A stretch of 64,000 nucleotides of DNA from the NCBI RefSeq assembly GCF_964204645.1, contig NC_134026.1:29902650-29966649 (forward strand). Reading direction: 5' to 3'. The position numbers were made by a program, and so were the translations under genes. Within the stretch, counting starts at the first letter, position 1; every line of letters begins with the position of its first letter. The notes under the pieces were generated by a model, which saw only the letters and a program-made list of their open reading frames with translations, did not search any database and was not told the origin of the DNA. Of this stretch, positions 31,086 through 59,800 are shown piece by piece. The DNA comes from Tubulanus polymorphus (taxonomy: Eukaryota; Nemertea; Palaeonemertea; Tubulaniformes; Tubulanidae).

Positions 31086-33881
31086 TAAAATTGTTTGAAA
31101 TTCTTTGTTTATTTAATTGGCTACTTTGAACTTTGTTAGTTCACCAGTCAGCGGTTTTTTATTATCTTGCAATCCACCACTTTTTTCAACCCAATATCCC
31201 CCATGATAATGCAATTATATCAATGGCAATACAGCTTACCACTTTAAACCGGACACGCTGACACTTGTTGACCGGTTAGAAGCGACTGTTGAGCTGCCGA
31301 AGAGTATTACGAAATTAGCAATCTTTTTGATTGTCACTATAGCCATCAGGGGCGGATCCAGACCGTATTAGCCGTATTGCCCAATACGGTCTAAAATTTA
31401 AAACGCCCATCGAGATTCCTCGGCAATATTTTTTGACGGCATATAAATTTCACCACCCCGGGTCCCGCTAATTTGATATAATGTCCACTGATGATCGGTT
31501 TGATTTTTATATGCAGAAGCAGAGTCCTGAATAGAAAACTTTGCCTTTGAAGGGGGTACCCAGTATACCGTGATAGCACTTTTTGGTCCGAAAGTTTATT
31601 TTCCTTGAACTTTTGTGTTAAAATTAAAAGATAGTGTCGTAGACTGGTTGCCTAGAAGATAGAGACCGGCAACCAGTCTCGGTCTATCGATGTATATGCG
31701 CATGTGCGAAGCATTTATAGCGAATAACGAGTGACGTTGTCCCGCAGGTATTCCGTAGGATGGAGAACATGCGCACGACAAGCAAAACTGGATGGCAGAA
31801 ACCTCTTGTGAAAAAAATCGCCTCGTGGATGTTAGAAGAGCGAGAAAGCTCGATATCATCCATGAACCTATTGCATTAAACAAACCAAGTTACCGAATTT
31901 TATTTCTTTCACTGCAACAAATACATATCTTGATTTTAACCAAATGGCTTAATAATTCTAGATCTATCTAAGCGAGGATTCACCTGTCATTTTACATGCA
32001 TCTAGTCGGCTGGGTGCATGTTTGAATCTGCCATCGGGTAGATGCGCTTACTTTACGGCGTATCGGGCAATCATTATCAAACGACGTAAATATAATTAAC
32101 TGATCTTTTCACAACTCGATATTATATATGACAAACGCAGTTTTCCTCTCTTTGATTCTGGCCTCAGGCTCTCGATAAAAAAAAGAACGTCTCGCCACCA
32201 AATCATAGACAGCTTCTGAAACCGCAATAAAAGAATCAAAATGATGACACGTCGATCCACGGCTGAACAGCGACATCATTCAAGCGAAGGATTCAGTCAC
32301 AATCGACGTTTAAGTGCATGAAGCTTTACACAAACAAACCGAACGAGACGTTGCATTTACGTTGATTAGGTCAAATCAACGAACGCTACTCGTGATGCGG
32401 ACAAAACTAAATATACGACAACTCTCAATCAAACTCGCCATCAACAAACTTACAGGACCAATTTGTTCCTCATTGATATCAGCTGAGAATCGGGAAATTC
32501 AATTGGAAACCTTGGAAACGATGAAATTTGATAAACCACCGGTGTGGATCAGTTTTGACGTGTTTTGCCGATAAAAGAAGAAAGCTGCCGTCCGGGTTTC
32601 AACTGTTTACACAGTTTTGTAACATTATTTTCATTTCAAAACGAGTAGTTTGGTGATACATCAGCGTCACACAATAATGAGCAGGTATTATAATGAAATA
32701 AGACAATAGAAATAATTTCAAAATTACAGTCAACAATGACGCGCAATAATTATTATTTTCTCCACAAATTACATTCTTGGATTTTGATGAACGAATTTAA
32801 ATTCTTGTTTTGAATGACTTTTTTTACAATTGGTATTGAGATCACTGATTGGTTTAATATCAATAGCAAAATAACAGTTGATACTCTATGAATACAAAGC
32901 AATCTATAAGCGACGCCGGCGCGAACACTGTGTTCAAATTATCAAAACGAATTCTTCGGTGTACATGTTATTAGAAATGAACTGGATCGTGTTTGACAAG
33001 TTTGCAACGTTGCAATGGATCATCTAATACACCTTCTCGGTTTGATTACGTAATGCGTTAGATACATGATACAGAAGCTGATTAGCAATTAATCATCGAT
33101 CGATTTATTGCGATTAGAAACGGGATCTTATTTAATACATGTGGAAACATATAAACCGTATAGATGGCACATGCGGGGATAAAGATTATTGTCGTTTCTC
33201 TGACGCATCGTAGATATATTTGTGATATTCGCGTTTTGCTCATCCATCGGAAAATATTAACAAAAACACAAACGATTTTATAATTCTTCAGCAATATTCT
33301 AAAAGTTGCGCACAGCATCCTCGGAACATGTCCTTGTTGTTTCACGACATTCATCATTGTTTGACTGCGGGTAATTTATGTACACTATAAACGGCCTGTG
33401 AACCGATTCCTACAATACAAATTCAAACGATATCAAATTCTCGAAAATTCCGAATTAGAAACACATTCGAATTTGTATCAGACCCGCAATTCAATCATTA
33501 CACAACGTTGAATCGCTTACCGTCATGTTACTGGTTATTTTCTGCGACGAGGGTTCAATTCCATTCCGCGGCGATGATTTTCCTGTAAAAATTTAAGTTT
33601 GCATTAATCTGAATATCAGACGATATCGTATTACCCCCACCTGGTAACCCCCAAGCCTGGCCCACCATCCTTGATTCGGAACAACGACTACCTCTCTAGA
33701 GCTTTTATGATTACTTAGATTTATAAAAGGTGATATTGACTCAAAAAACATATATTCACCAATTTTCAATATTTTGAACCTTTTTGATGATGCCTGTAAT
33801 GGTCAATGATACGTGATCGTTATGTAGGAATTTCACTAGGAGTGTTGATTTTATTGGGCCGATATAAGAGAAATAAATGTT
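31086..33881. other. Intergenic region between DOCK and the CCAP precursor
   Basis: No recognisable exon. Contains a short hairpin at 31642-31678 with arms GACTGGTTGCC/GGCAACCAGTC, similar to one at about 61793-61817. A TTTATT at 33850-33855, 27 bases below the CCAP stop, could be that gene's poly(A) signal on the minus strand. Confidence 0.5.
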
Positions 33882-34826
33882 TCATACCATCGTGCTCTCG
33901 AAGGCTCTGTTTCCCCATAGATTTCTCAGGAGATTAGCTTTAATAACATTATTGTTCATTCGTTCCAAGCTTTCGTCAGAACTTCCACTACTGATGTCCA
34001 CTTCTCTCTTGCCTCCCCCGTTCGCGCACCCGTGAAACGCGTTACAGAACGGCCGTTTTCTGGCGACCGGTTGCGCACGACTAGCCTCCAATAATTTAAT
34101 CATTTTGCGAATATTTCGCTCGGTGTTTGAACGTTTGCTGGCGCCATTACCGCAGCCGTAAAACGCGTTACAGAATGCTCGTTTCTTCTTCGTTTTTGTC
34201 GCGTCTATCGACGATGATCTCGATGACGATGGAGACATCACTCGCGCAATCGCTCGCGATATTAACAGTTTTTTATTCTCGCTACTTGTCCGTTTTCTTT
34301 TTCCATACTGACCGTTACCGCAGCCATAAAACGAATTACAAAACGGGCGCTTGGATCGAGTCCTATCGTTATCTTGTACGTGTTGATTGACTTTTTGTAT
34401 TAGATCAAACGTGTCTACCTCTCTGCTATCGTCCCGTAGAGTTGTCGTCTGCGGAATTTCCTGAAAATTTTTTTAGAAAATAACTTTTGATAACAAATGG
34501 TTTCTCGAGTTCATGCAATCTTATCTAATCAATCAGACCTCTGTCCTATCTACAAAAACTATTAATATGAAAAAACTCATTCTAACGGTTAAAATAGTTA
34601 AGGAAAGGTTACTTTCTATTGAGTAAGTCTTATAACCTAGTATAGTCGTTTTTGTGAACAACACGAACTCTAGATATAAGTTGCTAGTCTTCACATATTA
34701 CTTGTGATAAAAGAAAAATACATTTACGATAACCTGATTGGTTTTCTTTCTTACCTCTTCAAATAAAACTTGAGACAATGTACTAGTCACTGCTACTAAT
34801 AAACATAAATATGTCTGTACCAACAT
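33882..34826 (-). CDS. CCAP: CCAP-like neuropeptide precursor with three cyclic peptides
   Basis: Secreted prohormone. Exon 1 (34826-34755) starts with a 24-residue hydrophobic signal region, MLVQTYLCLLVAVTSTLSQ, and splices in phase 0 to exon 2 (34460-33882). The precursor is 216 aa. Three copies of the crustacean-cardioactive-peptide core (X-F-C-N-X-F-X-G-C) sit between dibasic cleavage sites: PFCNSFYGCGNGQY before GKRKR, AFCNAFYGCGNGAS before KR, and PFCNAFHGCANGG before GKR. The first and third end in Gly before KR and can be amidated; the second cannot. Arthropod CCAP is PFCNAFTGC-amide, and molluscan precursors (conoCAP-like) also hold three variants. Cys3-Cys9 would form the disulfide. 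All three have one more residue between F6 and the second Cys than the conoCAP-a spacing, matching CCAP itself. Confidence 0.93.
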
Positions 34827-37800
34827 TGCTCCACGACTGCAGATCAGTTCCGTTACAATTTTCCTTTTTCACTCAAAAGCTGAAATATGAACAAACATTA
34901 TTATGATATATATTCAATTGAAAATCTAACATCTTTTTATTTGAAAACGAATAGAAACTAAGTCCACCTGTAACAGAAGCAATGTTTTATGGACATGCAG
35001 TATTCCTTCGAGATGACGTTTATTGTTATAAATTGCATGCGATATGGATTGTCTGATTGTCTGATTGTCTCTGTCTCTTGCGCAGTCATTGAATCACACA
35101 TAACACGGACTATGGAGAAAATCTCAAGCGATGAACTATAAATGAAGGTCAACACTTTTTATTGGAACGAACAAATTTAGTTATGCGGCGGCTGGAAGAA
35201 CTGAGATATGAAGTGTCTGCAGTTACCGTGAAATATCGCTCTCATTTTATTCCAGATCGACTCTCGATAGTAAGAGAGCGGAAATAGAAAATACTGAATT
35301 TTCTTTCATTAACAGCTAGGAGATATTTTAAACCGGATTCCGCCATTGTTTGCGATATCTTTTTATGTATTAGAATTGATACGAACTCTTTCCGTAGCGG
35401 AATGTTTTCGAAGGAAATTAACATGACGGCGTCGAAAAGGCGAAATATTAATGCTTTCCCATCATGCCTCGTCCCAGTCCTGCTGGTCATAGAAACAACG
35501 TGAATAACTATAGCTTCTAACGAGACGCCAGAAATTGCCTGGCAATACAATTTAAGGCGGTACCTCGCGTTTGGTGCGGTCTAATGATGTTTGAAACAAA
35601 TTTGGGTATAAAGTAGTAATTGGGCTTTGGCCAGGAGGTAAATCAAAAGATTTGCGATTGTCAGAGAACGTATTAAGAGAATCTTTGAGTGGCGAAATGT
35701 ATCGATGGTCCAGCGATAGTTTAAACTGTCGGACCGGTTCTGTCGATCCGTGGCATATTAAATAAGCCATATTATGCATAATTATTACATACCCATTGTG
35801 TTTATATAGAGTTTTGCTGATAACTAAAATAGATTTAGATATTTCCTAAAGTATACGATATCAGAAGTATATTTTATTGATTTTAGTATCTTTGAATTGA
35901 GATAGTATTGACACGCCTGTAGAATCGAAGGAGCCTACCGACAGCAAAATAATAAATGATTTTGAGCGGGTGTTGAGTCTATAAAAGAGTTGAAAGCTAG
36001 ATCGATACCTGTTTTTTTTAACCCGCCGATGCGAGTTTGACGCTCGTCGTACAATTAGCCAGCTTCAACCTCGGTACCGACTTCTACCACAAATAAAAAT
36101 ATTTTCTTCCATTTCGTGAATACATCTACTCATTGATTCCCGATACTGATAATGACTTATGATTCATTATATTGCCTTCCACCGGCCAACTCCCGTCGGA
36201 TTGAGTGAAAACAAACGATTTATCAATAAATCGAACAAAAGGACGATCGAGAGAATGATTTGAAACGACAAATTGGTAATCACGCGAGGTTCACCCCGAC
36301 CAACGAGAAAATAACTATATAATTTCAAATCTATAACACGGTGTATGCCTCTCAATTTTGAATATTCTTGTTTCAGTTGCACAGTCCTATTTTCAATGTT
36401 TTCATCCTAATCAAATTTTAATGAAGAGCTACAGAATTTACTTTTGCTTAATAGAAAATAAATCAATTCATAAAAGTTACTCGAGAAGAAAGAAGTCACG
36501 GGTATATGCACGCGCTGTCAATGTGTAGCCGATTGAGGCTGTATATATCTGGGCATTGCCAAAAACGCATGTAACCACTGATCATGAGCTAACTGTCTGT
36601 AAAATTCCCTAAACGATGGTTCATTACAGATTGTCTGTTAGACTATGTGTAACCCGATAGAATCGTTAAATAAGCCCGGGCAGCAAAAACAAGCTGTATC
36701 TCACAAACTGAATTATCTACCGACGAAAAATAAAATGGGACCCTCCGCTTGATCTAGCGCGGTGAACCAAAGTTTGGTTTGTAAGCTGATAGAACTTGAT
36801 GACGGGAAACGTTTAGACTTAGTCAAATCACTGCCTTGTATTTCTGTAGAAATTTTTCCAAAATGTCCAATCCGTCTCATATATAATGTTTGCGTAAATT
36901 TCAAAACGACAAAATCTATTAAATAGTGACGCCGTGCTTCCGGTTCCAGGTTGCTTTATCGGCGTTATTTGATTCATAATTGATGAATAAATTCAAGTTG
37001 TCTGCGGCAGAAAAAAACACTGTAGATGTGTTAGATGAAATAGATAATCCCCATTAGATGTATACGTACATGTACAAATGCGCAAATTAGAAAGTAATTT
37101 ATATGATTCAAATGGTTTGGAATGAAATACGTGTCTATATACAATTACATTTACGGATAAGTCTTACCAGTTTAGAAATAGGCGGAATTATTCTATCCTA
37201 ACAGTTGCATCTTTCACTCAGTATCAACAAACAATATACCCTTTGATTAAACGCTATGACTATTTTATTGGTTCTACGGTCGACTGTAGCAAGCGAGGAT
37301 CAACCAGGATCGCTAGTGTGCATTCGGACAACGATGCCGACTTTCTTCTGAAATTACTCAAATTCTATGAATGATGAATTAAAATCGCGCGCTATGAATC
37401 CTAAAGAATAATGTGAGTTTATCTAGAGTCACAATTTGTGTAATTTCTAATGTGGGAGGCTAAAAATCTAGATGAAACTAACATTGAAAATGAAGTAAAT
37501 TTTGATCTAGTCCTATTGATGCGCACGCCATCTAGTGGGGTAGCTTGCGGCACGGGGATTAGAGTCTTTCTTTTTTACTAATTGCAGAATGAGTTCAGTT
37601 GTTTGTTGAATCTGCATTTGAATATAACCTGTTATACCTTGGCCTTACAGGTTGGCCAGAGGGTAAAGAAGGATCACAATAGCGTATCTAACATAGATAT
37701 GTTTTAACGATATTATGGATGGTATCACGTCACATGTTGTAAGCGCTGCTTCTAGGAATTCTGAATTTAACCAATGCGGGGGCTTCTTTGACTCAAAAAA

Positions 37801-50026: not shown

Positions 50027-51764
50027 TTATAACTTAGGGACGACTTTCGCGACGACAGTCGTTAGAACTTTATCCCAGCCAGACTGAGCAGTAGCGTCAT
50101 ACTCCACTCCTAATGCTGTCTGTAAGGTGAATTTCATCGGGTCAACGAATGTCTAAAACGGATTAAAAAAAACTTGTTCATAATCTTATGAGTGAATGAA
50201 ACCTGGGCACAATCATTGCTTAGATCTAAAACCAGAACAACATAATTGATATAAGGGGAGTCCCGCAATAATATAACTGTTTCCATGTTTAGTTTACTTG
50301 ATCAGTCCCTTCGCTCCGGATTGTGTATTTCACAACTTCTGTAACTCAGTATTCCTGCAGGTGGCTATTAGTTTATAGTCGAAACGTTGAAAAACTAACC
50401 TAGCTCAAGGAAACATTTTCGGACTTTATTTGTGGGATTCTCTTAATATTATCGCCACAACATCTTTCAATAGTCAATCTAACAACAACACCGACATTAA
50501 GATTTAAAACAACTTTTGGACTTCAGTCACGACTGTGCAACTTGGTTCCGGACACTAGGTCACTACTTTGTGACATATTACCTTCATTTGAGCGGGGGTT
50601 ATCCCGTACCGTTTGTGTGAAGTCGCAAGACCATTCAGCAAAGAATCTAATAATTCCCCATTCTCAAGTCCAGCAACGAGTTCTCCGACCTTTTTAAAAG
50701 TCAACACCCCTTGTTTTCGCATCACCGACGAGTTTGGGTCACTAGACTTAAACAGGCGTTTATGGTCGGGATTCTTTTTGAAGAACCTGTAATTTGAGAA
50801 ATTGTCTTGAAGTCGTCTCGGTACAGTTGAATGACTGTCGTTAAGCGTTCGCAAAATCATTGCTTTTTCATACAAAGTTGGTGCATTTTTCACCAATAAA
50901 TAAACATTAACAGAGATATTAAATTTAGAATGTTCACAATAGTGTGCCAGTATTGATGGTGAAAGCATCTGGTAGATATAATGGCATAGATATTTGTGAG
51001 CTATTACGTTTATATTAAATTTGCATCCAAAAATAAATTTTTACGATGCTTTATTCATTACATGACCAGCTGTCAAACTGGAAACTGCTCTGAAATGTTA
51101 TTGCAACGCGACAAAATAAGCCGTTCTTACTCAGTATAAAAGATGACACTATTTCCTTCCAAATCACCTGCCATTTTGCTCCATGTACTTTTAACTTTGT
51201 CGAGCTCTCCAGCCGTCAACGACTGAAAACGTATCAAAAATAAAACGTTATCTTTTCATTCTAGACGCATCGTATCTGTTGGTGTAAGCGTATCGAACTA
51301 CCATGTAATATTAAACAACCATCCATACGTTATTTGAAATGAACTTATTTTGATATAAAGAAAAATTCTCTCACAAAATACTGAAAAAACAATCCTGTAT
51401 GTCATGGAACCTAACAATTCCTTTATACAAAACAATACAATAAATACGTGTATTGAAGAAAAAGTCACGAGTACAAAGAAAGACTATACGACTTAGTGAC
51501 GCTTCAACTAAAAATCAGTTTTCTTCAATATAAAATACAGACAGTCACTTGTCTATTGGATTCACTATAAAAACCAATATACATGTATGACAAGACTGCT
51601 CATCCAGGCGCGGTATTGAATAAAGATTCTGAATGAATTTTCTAATGATTATAGAACTACATGTAATGATTTTAACCGAATGCTTTCTGTGTCTGTAGCT
51701 GTTTTTTACGGTTGAGTTTACAAAGAAATGCTTGAGTAAAGTTAGTAAATGCGCTACTCACCAT
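50027..51764 (-). CDS. Globin, intracellular type, distal Gln (E7)
   Basis: Heme protein of 141 aa. Exons: 51764-51762 (the ATG alone), 51222-51131, 50786-50582, 50152-50027. The start codon sits directly before a GTGAGT donor and joins in phase 0 to SLTAGELDKVKSTWSKM. Helix C/CD gives FFKKNPDHKRLF with the invariant CD1 Phe. The E helix reads MRKQGVLTFKKVGELV, placing Gln where the distal His (E7) normally stands. LATSHKRYGI supplies the proximal His (F8). The C-terminal exon reads FVDPMKFTLQTALGVEYD, typical of the G/H helices. The two internal introns fall at B12.2 (phase 2) and G7.0 (phase 0), the ancestral positions. No signal peptide is visible. Distal Gln occurs in several invertebrate globins. 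Neuroglobin-like versus myoglobin-like subclass was not decided. Confidence 0.92.
50368..50455 (+). repeat. Degenerate copy of the CTGAAGATGA...GTCGAAACG repeat family (globin intron)
   Basis: Contains ATAGTCGAAACGTTGAAAAA, AGCTCAAGGAAACATTTTCG, GGACTTTATTTGTGGGATTC. It lacks a clear left half. Shares the ATTTCGG/TTTCGGAC and GTGGGATTCTC blocks with 59850-60087. Lies in the last globin intron. Confidence 0.6.
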
Positions 51765-56808: not shown

Positions 56809-59800
56809 TTAATTTGAACCTCGTGTTGTTATCATGTTGTTGCACCACAGCACGAATGTCGATAAATGCTCCTGAATTGTGACCAGCGATTGCGACAGGA
56901 ATTGTTGAAGGTTTTCCGGAGAAAGTTTGCCACTGAAATAATAATCAAACGACAATTGATTGAATCGGGGTATATGAGATTTAAACTCGTAACAGATTAG
57001 TGACAGTAATACTTACACAAATACATTTTCGAGTAACCATAGCCAGATAATACGCATGTAAAAGACGACTGTTTGCCACAATAAGTAGCTGTATTGTAAG
57101 AATATCTCCCAACCTGCTACGACATACGCGGCAACAGTTTCAAACAAATCGTACGGAAAATTGTCTTTCACCTGAAAATAACAGGAAACAGGTTCGATAC
57201 AGTGTCAATTTCCATAGTTCAGCAAGTTCCATGTTCTTTGAGTTTAGAGTTTAAAATCCTAACTTTAACTCTGAAGGCGAACCTTTCCAACAGCTTAGTA
57301 GAACACTAGGTCCTGTATTATTAGTAGATTGCGTAGGACTTACCCATGTTACAAGTTCAGGTGATTTCTCTTTGACGTTATCGATAACCGGTTGTAAAGT
57401 GTCCATTAAACTTGTAAGGAATACTCCGAGTTTAGCCCAGATAAGTAACAAGTAAGGATAGCTTATTTCTACTGCACGACTGTAGTAAACTGGTACATTT
57501 TCATTCAACCAACTGCAAATAAATGACATATAAATGAATATAAATCAAAACAAATTTTACGCTACTGTCAATCAATCTATATTCCAAACCCCCATCAGAC
57601 AATCTGATGGGATAATTGAGACCGTCTGCTGTCTGGACCCACCCTCAATCTGCTATCTGGTCCCACCCTCAATCTGCTGTCTGGACCCACCCTCAATCTG
57701 CTATCTGGACCCACCCTCAATCTGCTATCTGGACCCACCCTCAATCTGCTGTCTGGACCCACCCTCAATCTGCTGTCTGGACCCACCCTCAATCTGCTAT
57801 CTGGACCCACCCTCAATCTGCTATCTGGACACACCCTCAATCTGCTGTCTGGACCCACCCTCAATCGGCTGTCTGGACCCACCCTCAATCTGCTATCTGG
57901 ACCACCCTCAATCTGCCATCTGGACCCACCCTCGATCTCCTGCCTGTACTCCTTCCCATATTCTCCAGTCCAGACCCAAGGCAATTTTACTTGTACCCCG
58001 TAAACGAATTGGTTTTTACCAAACATCCACAGAGACATCGACATTTTATCAGCAGGTATGGAAAACGAGTTCATCAAGACATCGCCCATCAAATGGTGAT
58101 CATCTGAGGGGGGGTAGAATACAGACAGTTAATGTATTGGATACTTACTCATAAACCTTCAAACTGTATAGTTTTGTTAGTGCGATTACTTGAATGGAAA
58201 ATGCTAAAACACCAGTGTCTTCAAGAATACGGTAAGTTCTCGATCCTAAAAACAGAACATTCAAACGATGATCATCATTAACTCTTTACACCGAACAGAT
58301 AAACAACAAATACAGCAATATGTTATACCTTTAAATCCATTATTGATAAGGAAATCATAAGCGAGCAACGCGATTACAACGCCAAATACTGCCAGGAATA
58401 ACGACCCCCACGGGAACCGAAAACCGCACAGTTTCTTCGATATTATTTCCTGCAAGAGAAATTATTCGAATTGATCATAAAACTGAACGTTACTCGACGG
58501 AGAGTTTCAATATATGATCGATTGATTACCTTGCAAGTCACGGAGCATACAATAAATCCTTCCGGTTCATCCTTATCGTAAATAATTCCATCATTCGTAA
58601 TATCGAACGCACGAATCGTATCTCTCAACAAAACCTTATTAATCTTAGTCGAATTCACCGTGTCCCAATTATCAAGTATATGCTCCAACAGAACTCTGTA
58701 ACAGACGCAGGACGAGATGTGTTCAATATTCCAGTCATGTTTCAAACTATTTTACCGTAAACTGCATTCGCTATGGAACCAGTTAACTCGTAACATTCAT
58801 CATAGGCCACAAACTCTCCTCGCTGACGAAGATGCAAATGGTCCAGCGAGATTCGAGTCTTACGTAATAACATACATACCCCGATTCCGGCAAGTGTTTC
58901 AAATACATTTGACGCCAAAGACTGAAGCACTGTTTATCTTTCTCTAAACAAACGATCAGACAGGATAATAGCTGTAAAATATCAAACAAACAAACACTGA
59001 TCTCGTTAATCAGAATCTCTCTACGCATTCAGAAAAATCGATAATTACACGTAAAAATACCTCTTCGCGGAACGGAGTATAGCCATCTGGTTTCAAACGC
59101 GCCAGGAATGAAGGGAAGAAATCATGCAACGTGTTCTCCTGATTATCACCAAATGCAATTTCCTAAAATAAGAGTTTTCCCAGATTTTTTGATTCCCTGA
59201 ATTTTCCAGGTTTTCCAGATCAGTGGCCCCCCTATAAGTGATGCGACTTAACCGATGTCAGACGGCTTGAAATTTGAATCAGACGGCATTTACCTTGAAT
59301 TTTGGATAAATTCCGCGCAGTTGTTTTTGTAGTTGAGTCGGTAGTGTGTTAGTTCCGGAATGAACGACGTCTAGAACGGGGAAGAAATCTCGAAACGTAA
59401 CGGAAGAATATGCTTTCTTCAAATCTTTGTGATGAATCAATAACCGTTCGAGATAACCGACGGAATACGCTGTCAGCGACCTTAATCCTAATACTGGCAA
59501 CATTACATCCAACCAGACTGAAATAGAAAATCGTGTCGCGACATTTAAAACATGAGGAAATAACAGAATTCAGAGAAAAGAGGGCAATAGCTTACCGCGT
59601 AGACCAGCAGATAGATCATTAGCTCCACACTGACCTATGCACCATAAAATCGATAAACATCGTAACGGTCGATTTTTATGCAACTTAATAAGATCCAAGT
59701 ACTGCGAATAATATAGAGATAAAGATGAATTAAGAGAAATACAGCAGAATATCACTGATTTTCATCGTGTGCAATATAATGAAATGTAGCCAATATTTCG

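Follow-up and report, generated by a model that had tools for sequence, protein, structure and literature searches.

The 64,000-nucleotide stretch of the Tubulanus polymorphus genome analysed here (hereafter, the window) encodes three closely similar ring-forming peptides on the reverse strand, at positions 33882-34826. The locus raises two questions: whether these peptides belong to the crustacean cardioactive peptide (CCAP) family, an old and widespread animal family of small ring-shaped nerve hormones, and whether the tails that follow the rings are part of the mature products.

Gene structure and encoded peptides

The first coding exon (34755..34826, reverse strand) runs from an ATG at 34826 to a final base at 34755, where GAG is followed by a GTAAGA donor, and encodes the signal peptide MLVQTYLCLLVAVTSTLSQ followed by VLFEE. 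Because this exon is 72 nt long, the predicted intron (34461..34754, reverse strand), which has GT..AG borders and closes with TTTTCAG, is in phase 0; the pyrimidine tract at the acceptor before 34460 is mediocre. The second coding exon (33882..34460, reverse strand) opens at base 34460, carries spacer peptides and the three CCAP-type peptides, and ends with a TGA that finishes at 33882, with a polyadenylation signal, AATAAA, 27 bases beyond it (33850..33855, reverse strand). Joined, the two exons encode a precursor of 216 amino acids. Unspliced exon 1 reads through to a stop, an ATG is lacking from exon 2 ahead of peptide 1, and only this or a similar splice can therefore connect the signal peptide with the peptides. 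The ATG is preceded by an in-frame stop and lies in the context GAGCAATGT, with the Kozak G at -3, while the first 19 residues show, by inspection and presupposing the predicted splice, a hydrophobic core. Judged on these signals, both the signal peptide and the 34755/34460 gene model of the preliminary description appear correct, the latter to the exact base. A TTTCAG acceptor-like site is also present close upstream of the ATG (window 34880-34890), and an intron in the 5' UTR may thus exist.

The three peptides are PFCNSFYGCGNGQY (34305..34346), AFCNAFYGCGNGAS (34137..34178) and PFCNAFHGCANGG (34014..34052), all on the reverse strand and bounded on both sides by basic sites, i.e., SKR and GKRKR for copy 1, KKKR and SKR for copy 2, and RKR and GKR for copy 3. 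All three contain the ring F-C-N-x-F-x-G-C, with its two Cys five residues apart, and carry Y, Y and H, respectively, at position 7; the tails beyond the ring read GNGQY(G), GNGAS and ANGG(G), as had been described, along with the ring and the Tyr/His substitution, in the earlier reading of this DNA. A Gly that would signal amidation precedes KRKR in copy 1 (34302-34304) and KR in copy 3 (34011-34013) and is missing from copy 2, where a Ser stands ahead of KR instead. Hence, the predicted products are PFCNSFYGCGNGQY-amide, AFCNAFYGCGNGAS as a free acid, and PFCNAFHGCANGG-amide, with calculated MH+ values for the disulfide-bonded forms of 1553.59, 1379.51 and 1291.51, respectively.

Family assignment and uniqueness in the genome

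The joined precursor matched the Pfam CCAP profile (PF11105) in three stretches with E=5.6e-15 and 55.9 bits (curated cut-off, 27 bits), and 23-residue pieces, one per peptide, each matched this profile alone at E about 2e-4 (3e-4, 2.2e-4 and 1.6e-4 for peptides 1, 2 and 3, respectively). CCAP was the sole profile matched by the precursor, and an NCBIfam search returned no match. A PDB search with the precursor returned enolase matches only, which we judged to be due to chance.

A disulfide ring is common to the CCAP and the vasopressin/oxytocin families, the receptors of which are paralogous (PMC4422128), and the precursor could, on this basis, be a member of the latter or of another cyclic-peptide family. 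However, the precursor contains neither a neurophysin domain nor a CxxxNCPxG peptide, the two hallmarks of vasopressin/oxytocin precursors (PF00184), and a genuine precursor of the sister vasotocin system with both features (CFVRNCPPG-GKR plus neurophysin) is encoded elsewhere in the genome, at C2:27609988-27610218 (27.61 Mb), on the contig that also carries the CCAP gene, some 2.3 Mb away. We therefore regard membership in one of these other families as extremely improbable. A second neurophysin match, at C2:16.10 Mb, contains a stop.

The same genome encodes two multi-exon receptor genes of the NPSR/CCAPR type, both on contig C1, at 26.35 Mb (26.346-26.356) and 28.04 Mb (28.036-28.046). Their last coding stretches matched human NPSR1 vs. 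OXTR at 57 vs. 40% (C1:26.35 Mb) and 47 vs. 31% (C1:28.04 Mb), the NPSR1 reference being a sequence checked at the family level only. In a tree built with few references, the two genes joined NPSR1 with moderate support (84/97), and the genes at 24.68 and 20.66 Mb joined OXTR (97/98). NPSR and CCAP receptors are orthologous (PMC4422128). Given two receptor genes of this type, one CCAP ligand gene may serve two receptors in this animal. The preliminary description had assigned the gene to CCAP and had named a closer non-CCAP family as the case against this assignment; the profile matches of the precursor and of each peptide on its own, the lack of neurophysin, and the two receptor genes all favor the assignment.

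The pattern KR-x-FCNx[FY]xGC occurs at only three places in the 267.8-Mb genome, all within this gene, and the reversed pattern, used as a control over the same 267.8 Mb, gave 0 matches. The bare ring pattern had six extra matches, the sixth on C10; none of the five inspected was in a precursor context. Neither protein nor pattern searches of the genome found a second CCAP copy, and no relative was found in viral contigs. A six-frame scan of the whole genome with PF11105 was silent, even though the spliced protein matches this profile strongly, and we treated this silence as a failure of sensitivity. Taken together, the locus is almost certainly a single-copy CCAP prohormone gene.

Conservation between copies and the C-terminal tails

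A codon alignment of the three copies shows that F2, C3, N4, F6, G8, C9, N11 and G12 are identical throughout, that positions 1, 5, 7 and 10 vary, and that all copies differ from position 13 onward. That is, the conserved unit is KR-[P/A]FCN[S/A]F[Y/H]GC[G/A]NG, which terminates in Gly; this extent of conservation, up to C-[G/A]-N-G with scatter beyond, is new relative to the preliminary description, and the reading of tail conservation is based on n=3 copies. The copies show 11 pairwise codon differences at F2, N4, G8, N11 and G12, and every one of the 11 is synonymous. This pattern argues against a gene that is decaying or not expressed, although the missing Gly of copy 2 could be read as a mark of decay. 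No damage is seen in the frame, the splice sites, the signal peptide, the poly(A) signal or any of the three rings, and no replacement CCAP gene was found elsewhere in the genome; accordingly, we consider decay very unlikely. The sequence features point instead to a genuine CCAP precursor that is probably functional.

The end of conservation at C-[G/A]-N-G suggests either that Gly12 once supplied the amide of a ...GCxN-amide resembling conoCAP-a, with residues inserted later ahead of the basic site, or that the Asn-Gly itself is functional. It could also mean that the tails are trimmed off, e.g., to C-x-N, with ordinary conoCAP-a-type ...GCxN peptides as the mature products, consistent with conoCAP-a terminating in ...GCYN-amide (PMC5100318). 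However, a basic site is absent between ring and tail, and thus known convertases would not cleave there, while PHM requires a terminal Gly; trimming is, therefore, unlikely. A more far-reaching reading is that the mature peptides keep their tails, which have become fixed in the lineage, that an internal Asn-Gly past the ring came to be conserved once inserted residues had displaced the amidation site, and that the amidated and free-acid forms from this one gene differ in their preference between the two receptor paralogues, a combined proposal that we put forward as speculative and, taken as a whole, unlikely.

How unusual the tails are depends on the reference set. In the Conus precursor, conoCAP-a (PFCNSFGCYN-amide), conoCAP-b (VFCNGFTGCG-amide) and conoCAP-c (LFCNGYGGCRG-amide) end in the tails YN, G and RG, respectively (PMC5100318). 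The description of the tails as unusually extended therefore stands relative to CCAP (0 residues) and conoCAP-a/b/c (2, 1 and 2 residues; PMC5100318), i.e., 4-5 residues here vs. 0-2 in the published peptides, but is provisional given this small set, which consists of CCAP and conoCAP peptides only. Literature searches on ring and tail sequences gave CCAP and conoCAP as the only peptide sequences, plus a match to FCNGF in an oyster paper (PMC4200219).

Comparison with known systems and proposed action

Arthropod CCAP (PFCNAFTGC-amide) likewise has the F-C-N-x-F-x-G-C ring, of equal size, a Pro/Ala start, and KR sites, but is encoded as one copy per precursor with no tail, whereas the nemertean gene encodes three copies with tails of 4-5 residues, Tyr/His at position 7, and one peptide predicted not to be amidated. 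The Conus precursor is similar in having three ring peptides, short tails past the second Cys, and amidation, which is predicted here for copies 1 and 3, although all of its peptides are amidated, its tails are 1-2 residues long, and the ring of conoCAP-a is one residue smaller, while the three rings here are nearly identical. According to PMC5996578, CCAP-like precursors contain three copies in Aplysia, Lottia and Patinopecten (scallop) and two in Crassostrea and Helix; copy number and layout in these molluscs resemble this gene (a comparison of layout, not of peptide sequence), and three peptides per precursor are ordinary in molluscs. CCAP precursors have also been reported from an annelid (PMC3890597) and from nemerteans (PMC8557429). 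The multi-copy layout would fit a spiralian. The deuterostome NPS/NG peptides, whose receptor family is orthologous, also have an Asn-Gly motif; it is important to note that Asn-Gly lies in the post-ring tail here, whereas the NG motif of the family follows Cys3 in molluscan CCAPs, and homology is not claimed.

For processing, we envision that the signal peptide would direct the precursor into the secretory pathway, that prohormone convertases would cleave at the KR/KKKR/KRKR sites and a carboxypeptidase would remove the basic residues, and that the two cysteines of each peptide would form the disulfide ring. PHM/PAL would then amidate peptides 1 and 3, and peptide 2 would be released as a free acid. 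The two amidated and one free-acid products predicted by the preliminary description follow from the sequence, and the genome contains a PHM gene at C5:21.44 Mb, the translated exons of which match peptidylglycine alpha-amidating monooxygenase structures (E about 1e-8). Among the broader Cu2_monooxygen matches, those whose motifs were read resemble DBH/MOXD and were rejected as PHM. A tandem cluster at C3:23.388-23.428 Mb comprises about four genes similar to copper type II monooxygenases.

Once released, the peptides would presumably serve as neurohormones or modulators through the two G-protein-coupled receptors of the NPSR/CCAP type. The roles of CCAP in other protostomes concern heart and gut muscle, feeding, and egg laying or spawning. 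With the present data, a single animal genome provides a well-supported CCAP ligand gene as well as two receptor genes that match it, and the three peptides represent a natural series (amidated vs. free acid, three tails, Tyr vs. His at position 7) for assessing whether CCAP receptors read the ring alone or the C-terminus too. The view of the CCAP family is unchanged by these data, with tail length and one non-amidated copy being modest variation.

Elsewhere in the window, a globin exon is found on the reverse strand at 50558-51040 (Pfam E=1.3e-10). At 57534-58154, a short-unit tandem repeat has frames open on both strands (WTHPQSA and PDSRLRVG repeats) and looks like a minisatellite rather than a gene.
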